Part shown: one piece after another, positions 22,570 to 31,653 of the stretch
Layout: each line of letters begins with the position of its first letter
Numbering within the stretch: position 1 is the stretch's first letter
Assembly (NCBI RefSeq): GCF_027587175.1
Contig: NZ_JAPCID010000048.1
Coordinates: 1 to 62,954 of the forward strand
Direction of reading: 5' to 3'
DNA length: 62,954 nucleotides
Origin: Solirubrobacter deserti
GTDB taxonomy: Bacteria; Actinomycetota; Thermoleophilia; Solirubrobacterales; Solirubrobacteraceae
Notes under the pieces: generated by a model
The model's database searches: none
Told to the model about the DNA's origin: nothing
The model's input: only the letters and a program-made list of their open reading frames with translations
Position numbers and translations under genes: made by a program

Positions 22570-23682
22570 GTGAGCGTCGCGTTCGACGAGCGCGCGCCGC
22601 TGCGGCTCGTCGAGCCGGGGCGGCACCGCGTGGTCGACGTGGCGCTGTTCTACGGCGAACGCAGCGGCGGCATCCGTACCTACCTGAACGCCAAGGTGGC
22701 GTACGCCCAGCGGACCGGCGCGTTCGAGCACCGGCTCGTGGTCCCGGGCACGCAGCGCGACGTGAGCGGCCCGACGTGCGCGCTGCCGTCGGTGCGCGTG
22801 GCGCCGAACAACGGCTACCGCTGGCCCCTCGGCATCCGGCCGCTCGCCGACCTGCTGGTCGAGCTCGAGCCCGACTTCGTGCTCCTGCACGACCCGTTCT
22901 GGGCCCCGCGCGCCGCGGTCACCGCCGCCCGCTCGGTCGGCGCGCGCGTGGTGATGGTCCACCACGGTTCGCTGGACCTGGACGTCAACGCCATCCCCGG
23001 CCCGAACCGGCTCTACCGCCCCGCGCTCGGCGCCTGGATGCGCCGCGCCTACGGGCATGTGGACGCCGTCATGGCCGCGTGCGACCCGCTCGGCGACACC
23101 GGCCGCGAGGCGACGCTGCCGCTGCGCTTCGGCCTGGACCCCGCCTTCTTCCCCAGCGGCGGCACCGAGCGCGGGGACCACGTGCTGTACGCCGGCCGGC
23201 TGAGCCGCGAGAAGGGCGTCTTCGAGCTGCTGGAGGCCGCGGCGCGCTCGTCCGAGCCGTGGCCGCTGTGGCTGATGGGCACGGGCACGGCCGAGAACGC
23301 GATCGCCGCCCGCGCGCGCAAGCTCGGCGTCGCCGACCGCGTGCGCATGGTCGGCTACGAGAGCGACCGCGAGGCGCTCGCGCGCGCCTACGAGTCCGCC
23401 CGCTGCGTCGTGATGCCGGGCGAGCTGGAGACGTTCGGCCTGGTCGCGTTCGAGGCGGCCGCGAGCGGCGCCTCGGTCGTCGCGTGCACCTCCGCACCGT
23501 CCGCCCGCGTCGTCGGGCCGCTGGCCGAGACATTCGCACCGGGCGACATCGAAGGCCTCGCCGCCGCGATCGAACGCGCGCGGGCCGGCGTCCCGGACCG
23601 CCTCGCCGCGGCCCGCTTCGCCTCCGCGCACCGCTGGGAGCACGCGTTCGCGGCCGAGCTCGCCGACCTCGAGGCGCTGTGA
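22570..23682 (+). CDS. GT4-family glycosyltransferase
   Basis: A 370-residue glycosyltransferase. The N-terminal ERSGGIRTYLNAK is the glycine-rich acceptor loop. The C-terminal donor domain carries YAGRLSREKGVFELLEAA and MPGELETFGLVAFEAAASG, the E-x7-E motif. GTG 22570 follows the palindromic repeat region. The stop overlaps the ATG of the DUF2334 gene (TGATG), so the two are translated together. It probably adds a sugar in the same pathway as the PHP-GT4 fusion upstream. The acceptor is unknown. Confidence 0.87.
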   Translation: MSVAFDERAPLRLVEPGRHRVVDVALFYGERSGGIRTYLNAKVAYAQRTGAFEHRLVVPGTQRDVSGPTCALPSVRVAPNNGYRWPLGIRPLADLLVELEPDFVLLHDPFWAPRAAVTAARSVGARVVMVHHGSLDLDVNAIPGPNRLYRPALGAWMRRAYGHVDAVMAACDPLGDTGREATLPLRFGLDPAFFPSGGTERGDHVLYAGRLSREKGVFELLEAAARSSEPWPLWLMGTGTAENAIAARARKLGVADRVRMVGYESDREALARAYESARCVVMPGELETFGLVAFEAAASGASVVACTSAPSARVVGPLAETFAPGDIEGLAAAIERARAGVPDRLAAARFASAHRWEHAFAAELADLEAL

Positions 23683-24521
23683 TGGTCGGGCCGAACTCCA
23701 GCCAGCTCGCCGACGTCGACGAGATCGCGAAGCTGATGCTCGCCGCGGTCTCCGAGCGCGAGCTCACGCCGCCCCGGCCGGCCCACCACATCGGCACGCC
23801 CGTCCGCCCGGCACCGGTGGACGGCGCCAAGCTCGCGGTCGCGATCCACGACGTCGAGCCCACGAGCTTCCGCCGCTGCGTGGAGATCCGCGACTGGCTC
23901 CGCGACCACGGCGTCGACCGCGTCACGCTGCTCGTCATCCCGGCGCCGCAGCTGCACCCGTTCCCGTCGCGCTCGCCCGAGCTGAAGTACTGGCTGCTGG
24001 ACTGCCAGGACGCCGGTGACGCGATCGCCCAGCACGGCCTGCAGCACCGCCAGACGCGCCCGGGCCCGCTGCTCGCGCGCCCGATCCGCCACTGGCAGGG
24101 CGGGCGCGCCGCCGAGTACGCGGGGATGAGCGCGACCGCCGCCGCGGAGTCGGTCGAGGCCGGGCGGCGCGTGCTCGCCGACGCCGGCCTGCAGCCGCGC
24201 GGGTTCGTCGCCCCCGCCTACGCCTACACGGGCGCGCTGCGCCGCGCGCTCAGCGCGCGTTTCGACTGGTGGGCGACGCTGCTGCGCGTGCACGGGCGCG
24301 CGGACGTCCGCTCCCCGGCGCTCTGCCTCGGCACGTCGGGTGCGCTCAAGCGCGCGACGTCCCCCGCGTTCGTACGGGCCGGGGCGGCGCTGTCGCCGCG
24401 CGTGATGCGGCTGGACCTGCATCCGGCCGACTTCGACCATCCGCGTCACCTGGCCGCCCTCGAGCGGGTGCTGGGCCGGACGCGGGCCCGCACGGCGGTG
24501 ACCTACGACGACCTCTGCTGA
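23682..24521 (+). CDS. DUF2334-type polysaccharide deacetylase-like protein
   Basis: A 279-residue protein with the NodB-like deacetylase fold of the DUF2334 group. Visible features are VAIHDVEP (the first metal-binding aspartate, about residue 50), AQHGLQHR (the H-x3-H metal site, about residue 110), GFVAPAY, and a late LHPADFDH. No signal peptide or membrane segment is present, so a cytoplasmic substrate such as an N-acetylated sugar intermediate is likely. It overlaps the upstream GT4 gene by one base. It directly abuts the glycosidase downstream, whose start codon is unclear. Confidence 0.8.
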   Translation: MVGPNSSQLADVDEIAKLMLAAVSERELTPPRPAHHIGTPVRPAPVDGAKLAVAIHDVEPTSFRRCVEIRDWLRDHGVDRVTLLVIPAPQLHPFPSRSPELKYWLLDCQDAGDAIAQHGLQHRQTRPGPLLARPIRHWQGGRAAEYAGMSATAAAESVEAGRRVLADAGLQPRGFVAPAYAYTGALRRALSARFDWWATLLRVHGRADVRSPALCLGTSGALKRATSPAFVRAGAALSPRVMRLDLHPADFDHPRHLAALERVLGRTRARTAVTYDDLC

Positions 24522-24528
24522 GGACGTC

Positions 24529-25722
24529 CTGCGCGCCAACTGGCGCGAGGGCATCCGCCGCGACGGGACGCCGTACGCCTTCACCTGTCCCTCGCCGCGC
24601 CGCTACCAGCACCAGTGGTTCTGGGACTCGTGCTTCCACGCCGTCGCGTGGTCGCACCTCGACCCCGAGCGCGGCCGGCAGGAGCTGCGCACGCTCATGC
24701 GCGCGGGCCGGCCGGACGGGTTCGTCCCGCACACCGCGTTCTGGAACGCGTCCCCGCTGTGGCGCCGGGCGCCGCTCTACGCCACCGCGAGCTACCGCGG
24801 CGACACGGGCACCGAGTCGATCCAGACGCCGCTGCTGCCGGTCGCGTGGGAGCGCGTCGGCGGCGCCACGCCGGACGACCTCGCGTTCCTGGAGGCGCAC
24901 GCGCGCTGGCTGATCCGCGAGCGCGATCCCGACGGCGACGGGCTGATCACGATCCTGCTACCGGACGAGTCCGGCCTCGACGACTCGCCCAAGTACGACG
25001 CGGTCTACGGCCGGCTCGCACACTGGAAGCCCGGCTACGCGCGGCTCGTCCAGCGCTGCCGCCGCGCACGCTGGAGCGCCGCGACGCTCGCGCGCACCAC
25101 GGACGAACACGTCGAGGACGTGCTGGTCAACGTCGCGCACGCGCTCTCGCTGCGCTCGCTCGCGCGGCTGACCGGCAACGCGGAGTGGGACGAGCACGCC
25201 GCGCGCACCGAGGCCGCGCTGGTGGAACGGTGCTGGAACGAGCGCCGCGGCCTGTTCTTCGACCTCGCCGGCCGCTCCGAGACGCAGGTCGAGCTGTCCA
25301 CCTGGTCCTCGCTGGCGCCGCTCGCGCTGGTCGGCATCCCGCGCGAGCTGCGCGAGCGGGTCGCCAACGAGCACCTGCTGCACCGCCGCCGCTACTGGGC
25401 GCGCTTCGGCGTGCCCAGCGTGTCGATGGAGGAGCCTTCGTTCCGGCCCGGCTTCAACGCCTACCGGACCTGGCGCGGCGCGGCGTGGATGAACACGAAC
25501 TGGCTGATGGTCGGCGGCCTGCGCGCGCTCGGTGCCGACGACGAGGCCGACACGCTGGCCGCGGGCGCGCTGGCCGCCGTCGAGCGCAGCGGGTACCGCG
25601 AGTACTACCACCCGCGCACGGGCTCCGGGCACGGCGAGCAGCGCTTCGGGTTCGCGACGCTCGCGATCGACCTCCCGAGCGGGTTTCCGGCCACGGGCGG
25701 GCGGGTAGCGCGGTCGGCGTGA
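24529..25722 (+). CDS. MGH1-like (GH63-related) alpha-glycosidase; start codon unusual
   Basis: About 397 residues of an (alpha/alpha)6-barrel glycosidase resembling actinobacterial glucosylglycerate/mannosylglycerate hydrolases and GH63 enzymes. The N-terminal YQHQWFWDSCFHAVAW and the later ARFGVPSVSMEEPSF and WRGAAWMNTNWLMVGG blocks are characteristic. No ATG, GTG or TTG occurs in frame before 24697, although clear family sequence begins by 24520. The CTG at 24529 with GAGGA just upstream is used here as the least unlikely start. A +1 frameshift from the deacetylase would also work, as would a base error. The stop overlaps the next GTG (GTGA). Confidence 0.72.
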   Translation: MRANWREGIRRDGTPYAFTCPSPRRYQHQWFWDSCFHAVAWSHLDPERGRQELRTLMRAGRPDGFVPHTAFWNASPLWRRAPLYATASYRGDTGTESIQTPLLPVAWERVGGATPDDLAFLEAHARWLIRERDPDGDGLITILLPDESGLDDSPKYDAVYGRLAHWKPGYARLVQRCRRARWSAATLARTTDEHVEDVLVNVAHALSLRSLARLTGNAEWDEHAARTEAALVERCWNERRGLFFDLAGRSETQVELSTWSSLAPLALVGIPRELRERVANEHLLHRRRYWARFGVPSVSMEEPSFRPGFNAYRTWRGAAWMNTNWLMVGGLRALGADDEADTLAAGALAAVERSGYREYYHPRTGSGHGEQRFGFATLAIDLPSGFPATGGRVARSA

Positions 25723-26123
25723 AACTGCTCGTCGTCACCCCTGAGCCGATCGACGCCGACTTCCTGCGCTCGACCCTCGGCGACGAGGTCGAGGGCGCGG
25801 AGGTGCTCGTGCTCTCGCCCGCCACCAACCAGTCCAAGCTGGCCTTCTGGGTGTCCGACCCCGACGACGCGATCGCGGAGGCCGAACACGCCCAGACCGA
25901 GACCGTCGAGCGGCTGGAGGAGGATGGCGTGGACGCCGCCGGCCAGGTGGGAGAATCCGAGCCGGCCCAGGCCATCGACGACGCGCTGGTGACCTTCAAG
26001 GCCGACCGCATCGTGATCTTCTCCCACCCCGAAGGCGACCGCGACTACCGCGAGGACGAGGCGATCGCCGCCGGCGAGGCCCGCTGGAACGTCCCCGTCA
26101 CCCACGCGCTGATCTCTCGCTGA
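25719..26123 (+). CDS. Small UspA-like protein
   Basis: A 134-residue alpha/beta protein. It begins KLLVVTPEP, has a central acidic helix, and ends with DRIVIFSHPEGDRDYRE and VPVTHALISR. The pattern resembles the universal stress protein fold, but the ATP-binding G-2x-G-9x-G signature is not evident. The function is unknown. It overlaps the glycosidase upstream (GTGA) and the tocopherol cyclase-like gene downstream (CTGA), so it sits in a tightly coupled rightward series. Confidence 0.65.
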   Translation: MKLLVVTPEPIDADFLRSTLGDEVEGAEVLVLSPATNQSKLAFWVSDPDDAIAEAEHAQTETVERLEEDGVDAAGQVGESEPAQAIDDALVTFKADRIVIFSHPEGDRDYREDEAIAAGEARWNVPVTHALISR

Positions 26124-26986
26124 GCTCGCTGTACCGCCGCACAGGCGCCGACGGGCCGTTCGGCGACCCTCGGCGTGCGCACGGCGTCGGGCTCGAGGGC
26201 TACTACTGGCGGATCTACGAGCCCGGCTGGAGCGCGCTCGCGATCGCGGGCGTGTGCCGCGGGTGGGCGATGGTTGCGCTGGCGACCTCGGACGGCGAGC
26301 TGTGGACGGAGATCGTCGACTCCCCGCGGCTCTCCCGCGACGGGCTCGGCGTGGAGGCCGGGCCGCTGCACGCCGACGGCGCCTCGCTGCGGGTCGATCT
26401 CGGGCCCGGGCTGGACGTGCGCTTCGAGGACCGGCGTGAGTGGCCGCGCCGCCCGTTCTCCCCGCTCGGGCCGGCGCAGATGATCCCGTTCCTGGGCCAG
26501 TACTGGTCGCCCTGGCTGCTGGGCGCCCGCGCGCGCGGATCGTTCGGTACGCGGACGCTCGACGCCCACGGCTACGCCGAGAAGAACTGGGGCGCCGTGT
26601 TCGCCGCGCACTGGTGGTGGGGGCAGGCGGAGTTCGTCGCGTTCGCGGGCGGGCGCGTGCACGGCGTGGCGCCGACGGCGGTCGCGGTGTGGACTGAAGA
26701 CGAGCTCGTGACGCTCGCCCCGCCGCTCGCCCGCACGGTGGCGCGGGCGGGCGCTGGCGAGTGGTCGATCCGCGCCTCCTCCTGGCGCTGGAACGTCGAG
26801 CTGAGCGGCGAGGCCGCCGACGCGCTCCTGCTCCCGGTGCCGATCCCGCGCGAGCGCCGGCTCGAGGTCCGCTCCCGCCACCACCTGCTGGGGCGGGTGG
26901 AGGTGACCGTGCGCCGGGGCCGCCGGGTGTGGTTCCGCGGCGAGTCGACGATGGCGGCGTTGGAAGACGGGGCTACGCCCGCATGA
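26120..26986 (+). CDS. Tocopherol cyclase-like protein (VTE1 family)
   Basis: About 288 residues of the tocopherol cyclase/lipocalin-like family. In plants and cyanobacteria this enzyme closes the chromanol ring of tocopherols. Diagnostic blocks are EGYYWRIYEPG at the N-terminus and GYAEKNWGAVFAAHWWWGQA in the middle, the family signature. The family N-terminus (YRRTGADGPFGDP) lies upstream of every ATG or GTG in frame; the first GTG is at 26252. CTG 26120, overlapping the preceding stop as CTGA, is therefore proposed as the start. The genes for the two preceding pathway steps lie 3 kb downstream. Its 3' end overlaps a convergent phosphatase gene by 14 bp. Confidence 0.78.
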   Translation: MSSLYRRTGADGPFGDPRRAHGVGLEGYYWRIYEPGWSALAIAGVCRGWAMVALATSDGELWTEIVDSPRLSRDGLGVEAGPLHADGASLRVDLGPGLDVRFEDRREWPRRPFSPLGPAQMIPFLGQYWSPWLLGARARGSFGTRTLDAHGYAEKNWGAVFAAHWWWGQAEFVAFAGGRVHGVAPTAVAVWTEDELVTLAPPLARTVARAGAGEWSIRASSWRWNVELSGEAADALLLPVPIPRERRLEVRSRHHLLGRVEVTVRRGRRVWFRGESTMAALEDGATPA

Positions 26987-29318
26987 CGAGCAGCGCGATG
27001 TCGTCCTCGCCGCCCTGCTCGCGGTCGAGCGCGCGCAGGACGTGGTCGGCGACGCCGTCCGGGTCCAGGTCGACGCCGTCGAGGGCCTGGCGCAGGCGCT
27101 CCATCCCGGCGTCGATCGCCAGCTCGCGCTCCTCGATCAGGCCGTCCGTGTAGAAGACGAGCGTGGCACCGGGCGGGAGCGTCAGCGTGTGGCGGGCGTA
27201 CTCGCCGGTCTCGGTGCCGAGCGGCGGGCCCGGGCGGGCGTCGGCGAAGTACGGGGCACTGTCGCGCGGAGCGATCAGCGGCGGCAGATGGCCGGCGAGG
27301 CTGAACGTCAAGCGCCGGTCCTGCGGGTCATAGACGGCGGCCAGGACGGTCGCCATCGGCAGGTCCAGCAGCGCGGGAGCGCGGACGCTGAGGTGGGCGA
27401 GCACGCGGTCGGGCGGGTCGCCGTCGTAGGCATAGGCGGCCAGCACGGCGCGCAGCTGACCCATGCGGGCTGCCGCCTGCGCGCCGTGGCCCATCACGTC
27501 GCCAATCACCAGCAGCACGCGCCCGTCCTCGAGCGGGTGGGCGATGTAGAAGTCGCCCCCGACGTCGCGCCCGCCCGTGCCCGGGAGATAGCGCGTGGCC
27601 AGCTCGATGCCCGGCAGCTCCGGCAGGTCGGCCGGGAGCAGACTGCGCTGCAGCGTGAGCGCGAGGCGGCGCTCGGCGCCGTAGAGCATCGCGTTGTCGA
27701 GCGCGACGCCCGAGCGCGCGGCCAGCTCGGTCAGCACGCGGCGGTCGAGGGCGCCCGTCACGGGGTCCAGGACGACGATGGCACCCAGCATGCGGCCGCG
27801 GGAGATGAGCGGGAGCGTCAGCGAGAGCCGGTCGCCCAGGCGCTCGTCCAGCTCGCGCGCTGGGCGCTGCTGCACGGCGCCGGCGGCGAGCGCGGTCGCG
27901 GGGATCGTGGCGCCGTGCAGCGCCGGGTCGACGTTCACGGTGTGCGCGATGCGGAAGGCCTTGCCGCCGTCGGGCATCGTCGGCTTGCCCGCCAGGTCGC
28001 GAACGATCCGGTCGCGCAGGGCCACCACGACCGCCGCGCCGAACCCGTTCACCACCACGTCCGAGAGGATCGTGAGCAGCTCGTCGACCTCCAGCGTCCC
28101 CGCCAGCCGGGCGCTCGCCGCGCTGAGGATCTGCAGCCGGCCGGTGGCGGCGCCGCTCGCGGCCAGCGCGTCCTCGCGCTCGCCCGCGAGCCGCGCCGCG
28201 TCCTGCTCGGCGCGGACGCGGCCGGTGATGTCGTGGAAGTAGACCGACAGGCCGTCCTCGCCCGGCGTTGCGCGGACGTCGAACCATATGTCGAGCGGCG
28301 GGTGGTATTGCTCGAAGCTCTGCGGCTCGCCCGTCGTGATCGCGCGGCGGTACGCGACGGCGGTCTCCGTGCCCTCCAGCTCGGGATAGACGTCCCAGAC
28401 GCAGCGGCCGACGAGCTCCCCGCGGCTGCGGCCGAAGATCCGCTCCGCAGCGCCGTTGAGGTACGTGAAGGTCCAGTTGAGGTCGAGCGTCAGGAAGGCC
28501 GTGCTCATCGTCTCGAGCACGCGGCCGAGTCGCTCGGCGGCGCTGTGGACGGCCGTCGTGTCGTAGGCGGCGCCGAGCATCCGCACCGGCGTGCCGTCGT
28601 TGCCGATCACCCGCCCGCGGGCGGCGACCCAGCGGACCGTGCCGTCCTCGTGCACGACGCGGTAGTCGGCCTCGTAGTCGCCGAGGCGGTCGACCGCCTT
28701 CGCGATGGCGGCCTGCGTGCGCGCCCGGTCCTCGGGGTGCAGACGGGCGACGAAGGAGTCGATGTGCCCGGTGAAGGTCGCGGGCGTGTAGCCGAAGAGC
28801 TCCATCAGCCGCTCGTCGAACTGCAGCGCGTCGGTCCGCAGGTCCCAGTCGAAGCTGCCGATGTCTGCCGCCGCGAACCCGAGGCTCAGCCGCGCGGCGC
28901 TGTCCTCCAGCTCCGCGGCCAGCGACCCGCGCTCGAGCTCGGCCGCGACCGCCGCCGCCAGTTCGGAGAGCACGTCACGGTCGTGCTCGGTCCAGGTCGC
29001 CTCCTCCTCGTCGTAGACGCACAGCACGCCGACGCAGTGGCCCGCCGCCTCGATCCGCACGCCCAGGTACGCGCCGATCCCGGCCTGTTTGGGCGGCTCC
29101 TGGCCGTAGAAGGTCGCCTCGACGAGCGCGTCCGCGGGCGGCCGGCGCGGCGTGGGGGGCGTGAGCGGCACCTGCACGTCGGCGAACAGGGACACCTGCG
29201 CGTACGAAGCGCCCAGCAGGCGCGCGCCGAGCGCGGCGAGCCGATCGATCGCCTCCCCCGGAGCCTCGCCGAGCAGGCGGCGAGCAGCCTCGATCCGCTG
29301 CTGGTCCGCCTCCATCAA
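26973..29318 (-). CDS. GAF-PAS-PAS-GAF-SpoIIE (PP2C) sensor phosphatase
   Basis: A 781-residue cytoplasmic sensor phosphatase. A GAF domain (about 20-150) is followed by two PAS domains (about 155-385, with DGTVRWVAARG as a PAC motif), a second GAF (about 405-555) and a C-terminal SpoIIE/RsbU PP2C domain (about 575-780). PP2C metal motifs are present: GGRDVGGDFYIA, LVIGDVMGHG and GGEDDIALLV. It should dephosphorylate a phosphorylated STAS anti-anti-sigma factor when its sensory domains are stimulated. Three STAS proteins occur at 44.2-50.2 kb. It is convergent with the tocopherol cyclase-like gene. Confidence 0.9.
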   Translation of the reverse strand: MMEADQQRIEAARRLLGEAPGEAIDRLAALGARLLGASYAQVSLFADVQVPLTPPTPRRPPADALVEATFYGQEPPKQAGIGAYLGVRIEAAGHCVGVLCVYDEEEATWTEHDRDVLSELAAAVAAELERGSLAAELEDSAARLSLGFAAADIGSFDWDLRTDALQFDERLMELFGYTPATFTGHIDSFVARLHPEDRARTQAAIAKAVDRLGDYEADYRVVHEDGTVRWVAARGRVIGNDGTPVRMLGAAYDTTAVHSAAERLGRVLETMSTAFLTLDLNWTFTYLNGAAERIFGRSRGELVGRCVWDVYPELEGTETAVAYRRAITTGEPQSFEQYHPPLDIWFDVRATPGEDGLSVYFHDITGRVRAEQDAARLAGEREDALAASGAATGRLQILSAASARLAGTLEVDELLTILSDVVVNGFGAAVVVALRDRIVRDLAGKPTMPDGGKAFRIAHTVNVDPALHGATIPATALAAGAVQQRPARELDERLGDRLSLTLPLISRGRMLGAIVVLDPVTGALDRRVLTELAARSGVALDNAMLYGAERRLALTLQRSLLPADLPELPGIELATRYLPGTGGRDVGGDFYIAHPLEDGRVLLVIGDVMGHGAQAAARMGQLRAVLAAYAYDGDPPDRVLAHLSVRAPALLDLPMATVLAAVYDPQDRRLTFSLAGHLPPLIAPRDSAPYFADARPGPPLGTETGEYARHTLTLPPGATLVFYTDGLIEERELAIDAGMERLRQALDGVDLDPDGVADHVLRALDREQGGEDDIALLVMRA

Positions 29319-29352
29319 GGCGAGGATATTGACGCCACGTCGAGTTGTCCGC

Positions 29353-29883
29353 CTAACTTTCCGCGCGGCGAGCCGCGAGGTCGAGCGGCTCGGCGCCCAC
29401 GAGGCGCTCGAACGGGCCGACCACGGCCCACACGGCCTTCAGGCGCAGGCGGGCGCTGGTGTCGATCGGCTGCACCCTCGCCTCCGACCACAGCTCCGAG
29501 CGCCCGTCCTCGAGCGCACGCACGCCGTGCGCGAACGCGACGCGCACGGTGCCGGGCTCATCCCAGGCCCTGAACGCGTCAGGGCCGTCGAGCGTCGGGT
29601 AGTCGCGGGCGAGCGTCCAGATACGCCCGCACAGGCCGGACACGAGCCGCTGCTCGGATTCGTCGAGCACGTTGAAGGGGTAGGCGCGAAACAGCTCGTG
29701 GTAGGTCATCGACCCCTGCACGCCCGGGATGCGCCAGCCGACCAGGCGTCCCAGCCGCCGCGTCTCCTCGAGGCGGATGCTCGTCGCGGCCGCCCACAGG
29801 TCCGCGGGCGTCGCGCGCGCCGCTCGCCGGTGGCGACTGCGGATCACCGGATCGGGCAGCCAGTGGTCCAGCTCCTCGCTCAT
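29353..29883 (-). CDS. SRPBCC-like conserved protein
   Basis: A 176-residue protein. Segments such as RATPADLWAAATSIRLEET, YPFNVLDESEQRLV and SELWSEARVQPIDTSARLRL fit a START/SRPBCC-type cavity fold. The family is only tentatively recognised and the ligand is unknown. Its ATG is only 20 bp from the divergent ATG of the MPBQ methyltransferase gene, so the two must share a compact control region. It may bind a lipid or quinone related to the tocochromanol genes, but that rests on position alone. Confidence 0.6.
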   Translation of the reverse strand: MSEELDHWLPDPVIRSRHRRAARATPADLWAAATSIRLEETRRLGRLVGWRIPGVQGSMTYHELFRAYPFNVLDESEQRLVSGLCGRIWTLARDYPTLDGPDAFRAWDEPGTVRVAFAHGVRALEDGRSELWSEARVQPIDTSARLRLKAVWAVVGPFERLVGAEPLDLAARRAES

Positions 29884-29903
29884 GGCCGTATGGTGCCCAA
29901 GCA

Positions 29904-30704
29904 ATGAGGCTGATCCAGCACAAGCGCGAGGCGTTCTGGTTCTACCGGTTCCTCTCGCTGGGGTATGACCGCTGGGTCAACCCGCTCTTCTGGACCCCCG
30001 CCATGCGCGCTCTGGCGCTGGATGCGGCGCGGTTGGAGCCCGGCTTGAAGGTGCTCGACGCGGGCGCCGGGACGGGCTTCACCACCGAAGGCATCGTGGC
30101 GCGTGTGGACGCGGCCGACGTGACGATGCTCGACCAGAGCCCGCACCAGTTGCACCGTTCGCGCGCCAAGCCCGCGCTCGCCGCCTGCCGCCGCGTGCTG
30201 GGGGACGCCGAGCAGCTGCCGTTCGAGGACGACAGCTTCGACCGGTACGTGTCCGCGGGCTCGATCGAGTACTGGCCGGACCCGCAGCAGGGGATCGCCG
30301 AGGCCTACCGCGTCACCCGCGCGGGCGGAACCGCGCTCGTGATCGGGCCCGTGCGGCCCGCGAACCGCTTCGCGCGCTGGCTCGCGGAGGCGTGGATGCT
30401 GTTCCCGCCCGTGTCGGACTACACGGGCTGGATGGAGGCGGCGGGGTTCACGGACGTGCGCGTCGTCGAGCTCGCGCCGGACTGGTACCGCGACGAGCGC
30501 GTGCCCTACGCGCTGGCGGTGAGCGGCGTCGCCGGGGCGGGCGCGTCCCCGGCGGGGCGCGCGGCGCCGGCCGAGGAGCCCGCGCCGAGCCGGGTGAAGT
30601 TCGCGGCGCGGTTCGTGGCCGGGTCGGCGGCGGGCGCCGCCTTCGTGCCGATCGCGGCCGTGCTCGCGCTGCGGGCCCGCAGAGAGAAGCGAGCCGCGTC
30701 GTGA
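29904..30704 (+). CDS. Plant-type MPBQ/MSBQ methyltransferase (VTE3-like)
   Basis: A 266-residue SAM-dependent methyltransferase closely resembling plant VTE3, which methylates 2-methyl-6-phytyl- or solanesyl-benzoquinol in tocopherol and plastoquinone synthesis. Visible signatures are RLIQHKREAFWFYRFLSL at the N-terminus, the SAM motif VLDAGAGTGFTTEGIV (about 50-65), LDQSPHQLH (about 77) and YVSAGSIEYWPDPQ (about 115). A hydrophobic C-terminal segment (FVAGSAAGAAFVPIAAVLAL) probably anchors it in the membrane, as in plants. It is followed after 37 bp by the homogentisate prenyltransferase gene, so the pair forms an operon. The assignment is from motif memory, without a database search. Confidence 0.85.
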   Translation: MRLIQHKREAFWFYRFLSLGYDRWVNPLFWTPAMRALALDAARLEPGLKVLDAGAGTGFTTEGIVARVDAADVTMLDQSPHQLHRSRAKPALAACRRVLGDAEQLPFEDDSFDRYVSAGSIEYWPDPQQGIAEAYRVTRAGGTALVIGPVRPANRFARWLAEAWMLFPPVSDYTGWMEAAGFTDVRVVELAPDWYRDERVPYALAVSGVAGAGASPAGRAAPAEEPAPSRVKFAARFVAGSAAGAAFVPIAAVLALRARREKRAAS

Positions 30705-30741
30705 AGCCGCGCGGCGAGACGCACGCGGCACGGGCGGGCGC

Positions 30742-31653
30742 GTGAGCCGCGCCGGCGCAGCCACCGCCCCGCGGGTCGCTGCGCGCGCGAACCCGTTGAT
30801 GACGCTGTGGCGGTTCTCGCGGCCGCACACGGTGATCGGGACGGCGCTGTCGGTCCTCGGGCTCTACGTGATCGCGGAGGCCGCGACGCCCGCGTGGGAC
30901 CTCGCGGCGACGCTGCTCGCCGGCCTGATGGTCAACGTCGCGATCGTCGGGATCAATCAGATCACCGACGTGGAGATCGACCGCGTCAACAAGCCGCTGT
31001 TGCCGATCGCCGCGGGCGAGCTGTCGATCGGCGCGGCGACGGCGATCGTCGCGGTGTGCACGGTGGCGCCGCTCGCCATGGCCGTCACGCAGGGCGGGTG
31101 GGAGACGGCGGCGGTCGCGGCGGGCCTCGCCGTCGGGGCGGTGTACTCGCTGCCGCCGCTACGGCTCAAGCGCTATCCGGTGGCGGCGAGCCTGTGCATC
31201 TCGGGCGTGCGGTCGGTGATCGTGAACCTCGGCGTGTACTGGCACTTCGCGGGGCAGATCGACCCGCCGGTGATCGCGCTGTGCCTGTTCGTGCTCCCGT
31301 TCAGCCTCGCGATCGCGATCCTCAAGGACGTGCCGGACATTGAGGGCGACCGGCGCTACGCGATCCGCACGTTCACGGTGCGGATCGGGCCCGAGCGGGT
31401 GTTCCGGGCGGGTTTGGCAGCCCTGTTGATTGCCTACGCCGGAATGGCGCTGGTGGCGCCGCCGCTGCTGGTCGACTACGCGAATCCGTTCGTCCTCGCG
31501 GGCGGGCACGTGGCGGCCGCGGCAGTGCTCCTGTACTGGGCCAGGAGCGCGGAACCCCGCTCGCACAGCGGGTTCACGCGCTTCTACATGCGGGTCTGGG
31601 CGCTCTTTTTTCTGGAGTACCTGCTCGTCCCGGCCGCGTGTCTCGCAAACTAG
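30742..31653 (+). CDS. Homogentisate phytyl/prenyltransferase (UbiA family, HPT/VTE2-like)
   Basis: A 303-residue integral membrane prenyltransferase with about eight or nine hydrophobic segments. The first Asp-rich motif is NQITDVEIDRVNKP (about 73-86). The second is KDVPDIEGDRRYAIRTFTVR, which is distinctive for homogentisate prenyltransferases rather than UbiA or MenA. FSRPHTVIGTALSVLGLY near residue 30 also fits that group. It would join homogentisate to a prenyl diphosphate (phytyl, geranylgeranyl or solanesyl) with decarboxylation, the committed tocochromanol step. It lies directly after the MPBQ methyltransferase gene. No 4-hydroxyphenylpyruvate dioxygenase gene is present in the window. 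Confidence 0.88.
   Translation: MSRAGAATAPRVAARANPLMTLWRFSRPHTVIGTALSVLGLYVIAEAATPAWDLAATLLAGLMVNVAIVGINQITDVEIDRVNKPLLPIAAGELSIGAATAIVAVCTVAPLAMAVTQGGWETAAVAAGLAVGAVYSLPPLRLKRYPVAASLCISGVRSVIVNLGVYWHFAGQIDPPVIALCLFVLPFSLAIAILKDVPDIEGDRRYAIRTFTVRIGPERVFRAGLAALLIAYAGMALVAPPLLVDYANPFVLAGGHVAAAAVLLYWARSAEPRSHSGFTRFYMRVWALFFLEYLLVPAACLAN

Follow-up and report, generated by a model that had tools for sequence, protein, structure and literature searches.

The plant tocochromanol/plastoquinone pathway uses HPPD, VTE2/HST, VTE3 and VTE1, and the cyanobacterial tocopherol pathway uses a homogentisate prenyltransferase (HPT) of the slr1736 type and a tocopherol cyclase (TC) of the slr1737 type. Methyl-plastoquinone of Nitrospirota is a homogentisate-type quinone in non-phototrophs, and members of Solirubrobacter are heterotrophs. 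Reviews describe tocochromanols as compounds that photosynthetic organisms alone produce (PMC5745509, PMC6257355); a paper on tocopherol synthesis in Leishmania claims an exception (PMC6443866). An annotated tocopherol cyclase is mentioned in Acholeplasma (PMC11344244), and Arabidopsis VTE1 is treated for its expression (PMC9330447). Among the matches listed from the openly licensed literature, judged by title and abstract opening, there is no report of a tocochromanol pathway in actinobacteria. Here we analyzed a stretch of 62,954 nucleotides from Solirubrobacter deserti (NCBI RefSeq assembly GCF_027587175.1, contig NZ_JAPCID010000048.1; hereafter the window), which is contig C68 of a 7.09-Mb Solirubrobacter genome and has a guanine-plus-cytosine content of 69.5-75.3% in 4-kb steps. 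It carries genes for an HPT, a plant-type methyltransferase (VTE3) and a TC-family protein, which, judged from their sequences, we read with a probability of about 0.7 as the tocochromanol-pathway genes for prenylation, ring methylation and ring closure; the host, an actinobacterium, is presumed to be heterotrophic. The genes lie where a preliminary description of this DNA had placed them: open reading frames confirmed TC, VTE3 and HPT, all on the plus strand, and the motifs GYAEKNWG, YVSAGSIEYWPDPQ and KDVPDIEGDRRY were found in the translations. The enzyme families and the actinobacterial host named there were also right.

By its sequence, HPT is a member of the homogentisate prenyltransferase family, and its substrate use is predicted accordingly from the family. 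It scored 323.5 bits against NF009525, the homogentisate phytyltransferase equivalog (cut-off 226, E 1.4e-96); the runner-up NCBIfam model, the prenyltransferase PRK12884, gave 94.5 bits (cut-off 269), the chlorophyll synthase model 69.8 bits and the MenA models at most 27. Plant HPTs are summarized as having two Asp-rich motifs, DX[D/E]XD and DXXDXXXD (PMC10617047); in the window protein these are DVEID (residues 76-80) and DVPDIEGD (residues 196-203), and the Asp residues of both motifs were invariant in 18 rows. A tree of 58 rows was then examined. It holds HPTs from Solirubrobacterales (15), from other actinobacteria (6) and of the cyanobacterial type (24, one of them from a metagenome-assembled genome labelled Gracilibacteria), together with 13 other UbiA proteins, which were drawn from 22 actinobacterial UbiA loci scoring below the cut-off and include no MenA or ChlG references; it leaves out G398 as well as L062, which is of the same species as the window and identical to it. 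The three HPT groups stood apart from the other UbiA proteins (support 100/98), so that a grouping with other UbiA enzymes, which the preliminary description had named as an outcome that would refute its reading, was found neither in the model scores nor in the tree. The Solirubrobacterales HPTs fell outside a branch of cyanobacteria and other actinobacteria (100/100), in an order among themselves that the tree does not resolve. The model scores, the separate MenA gene and the tree led us to reject the view that HPT is MenA, a chlorophyll synthase or any further UbiA enzyme with a name of its own, and the position of the Solirubrobacterales HPTs outside that branch led us to reject a recent transfer of the cluster from cyanobacteria.

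The VTE3 protein has a SAM methyltransferase domain (Methyltransf_11, 70 bits) and passed no NCBIfam equivalog cut-off. A provisional comparison with Arabidopsis VTE3, for which an approximate sequence was used, gave a lead: 266 columns, with the C-terminal hydrophobic stretch included, aligned at 48% identity (229 bits), whereas no cyanobacterial row in this comparison exceeded 69 bits. A VTE3-type enzyme was not found in 20 cyanobacterial genomes, where the best score was 68.2 bits versus 407-472 bits in Solirubrobacterales. Plant VTE3 is described as absent from cyanobacteria, and an archaeal origin has been suggested (PMC5159609). Among the HPT loci of the cyanobacterial set (L080-L147), 35 of 67 held a methyltransferase weakly matching the VTE3 profile (41-60 bits). 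Except in L098, L123 and L146, this gene is on the strand of HPT and its frame starts no more than about 1.6 kb upstream of it. The neighbourhood of a methyltransferase and HPT may be shared with cyanobacteria.

The TC protein matched PF14249 with 36.2 bits (Pfam cut-off 26.6), and all 11 rows of the alignment A2 matched this family at E 0.01. In hhalign it aligned to a cyanobacterial TC profile with a probability of 99.0 and an E value of 6.5e-18 over 181 C-terminal columns, the N-terminal part lying outside this alignment and being covered by the multiple alignments and the structure model only. Across 42 rows (12 from genomes with HPT, 19 from genomes lacking it and 11 cyanobacterial), 17 of the 25 columns inspected were invariant, 22 of these 25 having been chosen for conservation; the invariant residues include E26, R31, W129, Y152, E154, K155, W157, W165, W167, W215 and E282. 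The structure model (predicted local distance difference test, pLDDT, 82.3) resembled AttH (2ich) with a Z of 21.1, followed at Z 18.5-19.4 by kievitone hydratase and the pericyclases CghA, Phm7 and Fsa2 and at Z 15.4-15.9 by 25-phosphosteroid lyase, and the next row down had a far lower Z of 6.2. These Z values come from VIA-align, which re-examined the Foldseek matches of this and the SRPBCC model and was no independent search; in plain Foldseek, two 2ich chains were below E 0.001 with TM values of 0.40-0.49, and the TC profile matched no solved structure by sequence up to E 1. Enzymes of the AttH, pericyclase and kievitone hydratase types act on lipophilic or prenylated substrates. This suits chromanol ring closure without proving it.

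The start of the TC gene has two candidate explanations, in that it may use a non-standard start codon or contain a frameshift. Its frame has no ATG, GTG or TTG until 26252, a position already within the conserved domain, and the conserved N-terminus starts near 26129. Likewise, in S. phytolaccae, G476 and Candidatus S. pratensis, the stretch of 60 bases that precedes the conserved TC motif shows no ATG, GTG or TTG. A small gene (25719-26123) precedes TC, its stop overlapping TC, which lies in its -1 frame.

We compared the surroundings of HPT in 16 loci, one of them (L062) identical to the window and with G398 outside this count. The results showed that TC, VTE3 and HPT occur together in 12 of the 16 loci (the window, L050, L051, L053, L054 and L056-L062), which belong to three families and include S. 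soli DSM 22325 and S. phytolaccae KCTC 29190. One locus (L052) has VTE3-HPT without TC, and in three (L048, L049, L055) HPT is at a contig end; thus, TC adjoins HPT in 12 of the 13 loci holding both VTE3 and HPT. Nothing lies between TC and VTE3-HPT in L051, L053 and L061, and the SRPBCC gene alone lies there in L050, L054, L057 and L059. In six other actinobacterial loci whose HPT is above the cut-off, neither VTE3 nor TC was near HPT (L063-L067 over 20 kb, L007 over 3.9 kb). With the E value of HPT, the TC score above the Pfam cut-off and the cluster kept across families, the gene set is well beyond chance.

The distribution of the genes was analyzed in 232 Solirubrobacterales genomes and in wider samples of genomes. 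HPT was found in 17 of the 232 (E 1e-40), 16 of them above the cut-off; in the seventeenth (G398) it is split over two contig ends. Its occurrence is patchy, covering 10 of the 54 genera of the order. VTE3 (E 1e-45) was found in 16 genomes, all within these 17, and the one carrying HPT without a VTE3 match (G357) is 77% complete. TC (E 1e-6) was present in 60 genomes, including 17 of 17 with HPT. HPPD (E 1e-30) was found in 49 genomes, namely 16 of the 17 with HPT versus 33 of the 215 others, 25 of the 215 being above the cut-off. Among the 38 genomes that match TC strongly and lack HPT, 5 carry HPPD (G351, G352, G354, G355 and G457), the match in G354 being partial and scoring under the cut-off. 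The occurrence of HPPD thus tracks HPT-VTE3, not TC. As the genomes are related, the values of the Fisher test for co-occurrence are not independent probabilities. All 7 genomes of the genus that were analyzed, including S. phytolaccae, S. taibaiensis, S. soli and Candidatus S. pratensis, have HPT, VTE3, TC and HPPD. VTE3 (E 1e-25) was found in 2 of 396 genomes sampled from the phylum, both Solirubrobacterales, and HPT was above the cut-off in 8 of 296 sampled genomes, 2 of them Solirubrobacterales. The presence, conservation, linkage and co-occurrence of these genes and the predicted folds are what the analysis shows.

We then searched for the rest of the pathway. The preliminary description had expected a gene for 4-hydroxyphenylpyruvate dioxygenase (HPPD) elsewhere in the genome, and it lies on another contig (G000:C58:2332-3390) with 444.5 bits (cut-off 277); the lack of this gene, named there as a second outcome against the reading, was thus not observed. 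For geranylgeranyl reductase, none of 19 genomes had a match above the TIGR02032 cut-off of 158.8, the best of the window genome being 87.7 bits; a tocotrienol or plastochromanol type is therefore likelier than tocopherol, and weak members of the geranylgeranyl reductase superfamily could reduce some of the bonds. MenA is a separate gene in the window genome (contig C48, 239.7 bits). A search of 17 genomes found it in 16, which makes menaquinone the probable quinone of respiration.

In the window genome, the phosphatase and SRPBCC genes stand on the opposite strand, so that TC and VTE3-HPT form no single uninterrupted operon there; elsewhere in the order they can be contiguous. The gene calls, based on open reading frames plus codon-position GC, are given in Table 1.

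Table 1. Genes of the TC-VTE3-HPT locus in the window
Feature	Coordinates	Strand	Remark
TC, tocopherol cyclase-family protein (PF14249)	26120..26986	+	frame open, given from CTG 26120
GAF/PAS/SpoIIE-type phosphatase, 781 aa, between TC and SRPBCC gene	26973..29318	-	SpoIIE domain 157 bits
SRPBCC/Bet v 1-fold protein, 183 aa, possible lipid carrier	29353..29904	-	predicted fold
VTE3, plant-type MPBQ/MSBQ methyltransferase homologue, hydrophobic C-terminal stretch	29904..30704	+	
HPT, homogentisate prenyltransferase (HPT/VTE2 type, UbiA family)	30742..31653	+	

At E 0.001, the SRPBCC protein matched neither a Pfam nor an NCBIfam family. Its model (pLDDT 89.3) resembled Bet v 1-like proteins and aromatase/cyclases with Z values of 8-9.8, and its gene neighbours TC in many genomes with HPT and in some without it. 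The phosphatase gene is found between TC and the SRPBCC gene in the window, L056, L058, L060 and L062, all of the genus, and in no other compared loci; Candidatus S. pratensis (L059), also of the genus, does not have it at that place. The region 5' of TC in Solirubrobacter (22570-26123 in the window) holds a glycosyltransferase, two further genes and a 134-residue protein without a Pfam match, in an order kept in L058-L060 and L062 and, minus the 134-residue gene, in L056. Downstream of HPT, transaldolase and transketolase genes follow in 7 of 7 genus genomes (the window, L055, L056, L058-L060 and L062), 4 of which are named Solirubrobacter records, and this ruled out the cluster as a contaminant.

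Several observations weigh against a tocochromanol pathway with TC as its dedicated cyclase. Cyanobacterial TCs scored 402-558 bits on PF14249 compared with 36 bits for the window protein, which is divergent and about 70-80 residues shorter than the aligned cyanobacterial TCs, and the PF14249 search also gave a weak, below-cut-off match in Thermotoga maritima. Among 55 genomes with a strong TC match, 38 had no NF009525 match at E 1e-40; the number 38 is 60 minus the 17 with HPT and minus 5 with a weak TC (G306, G323, G342, G500 and G515; E 4e-8 to 9e-7), and fragment matches of TC, such as those of G355 and G460, were counted. Many of the genomes lacking HPT are incomplete, and in three that carry TC and are 97-99% complete (G121, G154 and G218), NF009525 found nothing down to E 0.001. 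The invariant TC residues are the same in genomes without HPT and VTE3, and a TC tree of 12 rows with HPT, 19 without and 10 cyanobacterial mixed the first two kinds, the outermost Solirubrobacterales branches being rows without HPT when the cyanobacteria were set apart. The substrate of TC may therefore be something else. As for the supply of homogentisate, a weak homogentisate dioxygenase-like match lies near HPPD in the window genome (C58:326-1129, 58.6 bits, cut-off 510.75), so HPPD may serve tyrosine breakdown and part of the homogentisate may be degraded; such matches, none above the cut-off, occurred in 12 of 17 genomes with HPT and in 19 of 21 tested genomes with HPPD and without HPT, and G399, G473 and G474 have HPPD and HPT with no such match. 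Concerning the searches, the scoring for TC and VTE3, including the phylum-wide VTE3 count, mostly covered the top 6-11 candidates of each genome, and misses are possible, and the HPT cut-off was passed by none of 14 control genomes, a set holding no positive control for that model.

In loci without HPT, the SRPBCC gene is also near TC in L177, L178, L179 and L188. NadA is near TC in L054, which has HPT, and in L177, L179 and L183, which do not (named by Pfam in L054 and L177 and by the same cluster in L179 and L183), and VTE3-HPT is found solely in L054; this pattern suggests that HPT-VTE3 is a cassette which joined, or dropped out of, a TC locus that was already in place. In G463 (L186:7574-9515), a second MenA-like prenyltransferase gene, divergent in sequence (109.2 bits, cut-off 102.15), is convergent with TC, the normal MenA (236.3 bits) being elsewhere in that genome, and in L182 an ABC1-type kinase lies 3' of TC. 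Same-cluster genes also stand beside TC in two genomes without HPT (L190:5764-7200 and L191:9688-11169), the one in L191 being a wax ester/triacylglycerol synthase family protein. Since TC occurs in 38 genomes without HPT, where it can stand near the SRPBCC gene and once beside a MenA-like prenyltransferase, the cyclase probably has a second role and uses another prenylquinol in many members. The preliminary description had presented it as a dedicated vitamin E enzyme, which the data do not support, given the 38 of 55 genomes and the scores of 36 versus 402-558 bits.

These data allow a tentative reading, compatible with a tocochromanol route in the window genome, in which the cyclase of the order is a menaquinol cyclase forming a naphthochromanol, or another enzyme of prenylated aromatics, and the HPT-VTE3 cassette was added to or lost from a TC-SRPBCC locus. 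It is consistent with the 38 genomes, the shared NadA neighbourhood of L054 and L177, the convergent gene pair of G463 and the kinase gene of L182, but a MenA-like gene was beside TC in only 1 of 19 loci without HPT (where only selected neighbours were named), and the linkage of TC to HPT and VTE3 in genomes with HPT points to benzoquinols. Alternatively, HPT and VTE3 would make an open, plastoquinone-like benzoquinone for respiration or redox sensing, the cyclase having another job or turning surplus quinol into chromanol. Plant VTE3 is described as serving plastoquinone and tocopherol alike (PMC5159609), and TC exists without HPT and VTE3, both of which fit an open quinone. The Nitrospirota compound, for which an NCBIfam family is named, would be a precedent as well, but the window VTE3 scored 31.4 bits on the MpqE model (cut-off 335), TC accompanies HPT in 17 of 17 genomes and adjoins it in nearly all loci with both VTE3 and HPT, and menaquinone is probably the respiratory quinone, all of which make an open end product unlikely. 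It is far less probable still that HPPD, HPT and VTE3 process homogentisate into a pigment or secondary metabolite and not a membrane antioxidant: the patchy distribution over 10 of 54 genera and the homogentisate dioxygenase-like gene near HPPD would suit this, but the genes are present in 7 genus genomes with a conserved TC, and the neighbours seen to be shared between families are TC, SRPBCC, VTE3 and HPT only, barring NadA-type genes in part of one family.

We therefore retain the tocochromanol route for the window genome, and its reactions, chain length, product and antioxidant role are proposed by analogy with known pathway chemistry. HPPD would convert 4-hydroxyphenylpyruvate to homogentisate, which HPT would condense with a polyprenyl diphosphate under loss of CO2. 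VTE3 would methylate the resulting benzoquinol to a dimethyl-prenyl quinol, and TC would add the phenolic hydroxyl across the nearest prenyl double bond to close the chromanol ring, with the SRPBCC protein possibly carrying the lipid to the cyclase. The product would be a membrane antioxidant similar to gamma-tocotrienol or, with a longer chain, to plastochromanol, and the open quinone would be its precursor. The chromanol idea of the preliminary description largely stands as a pathway call; the cyclase is not exclusive to the pathway, and tocopherol proper is not supported, the tocotrienol or plastochromanol type being likelier with no geranylgeranyl reductase above the cut-off in the 19 genomes. 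On a wider and rather doubtful view, chromanol closure could be old and widespread in Solirubrobacterales, with TC-SRPBCC acting on a prenylated quinol that in many members is perhaps of the menaquinol type, giving an undescribed naphthochromanol, and with an HPPD-fed HPT-VTE3 cassette giving a non-photosynthetic vitamin E of the tocotrienol/plastochromanol type in some lineages.

The conserved gene set suggests that this chemistry may extend outside photosynthetic organisms. If so, a gene cluster for the route in actinobacteria that can be cultured would contradict the photosynthesis-only rule more strongly than Leishmania does and would offer a small bacterial system for the role of vitamin E outside photosynthesis, and the bacterial VTE3 would be a non-archaeal candidate for the ancestry of plant VTE3, the origin of which has been placed outside cyanobacteria.

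Compared with known systems, the locus shares its set of enzyme families with the plant pathway, including a methyltransferase that resembles the plant VTE3 type, and differs from it in being a bacterial gene cluster with a short, divergent cyclase and no recognized geranylgeranyl reductase (19 genomes). With the cyanobacterial tocopherol pathway it has cyclase residues in common, and cyanobacterial HPTs are 41-49% identical to the window HPT in their best segments; in contrast, the VTE3-type enzyme found here was found in none of 20 cyanobacterial genomes, and the Solirubrobacterales HPTs lie outside the cyanobacterial branch. From the methyl-plastoquinone system of Nitrospirota (NF052510, MpqE) it differs in a methyltransferase far below the cut-off of that family and in the presence of a cyclase. 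The AttH-like double-lipocalin enzymes catalyze reactions different from that of tocopherol cyclase. Those compared (AttH 2ich, CghA, Phm7, Fsa2 and kievitone hydratase) resemble the TC model in fold, with Z values of 18.5-21.1, whereas their sequence identity to TC is 7-12%.

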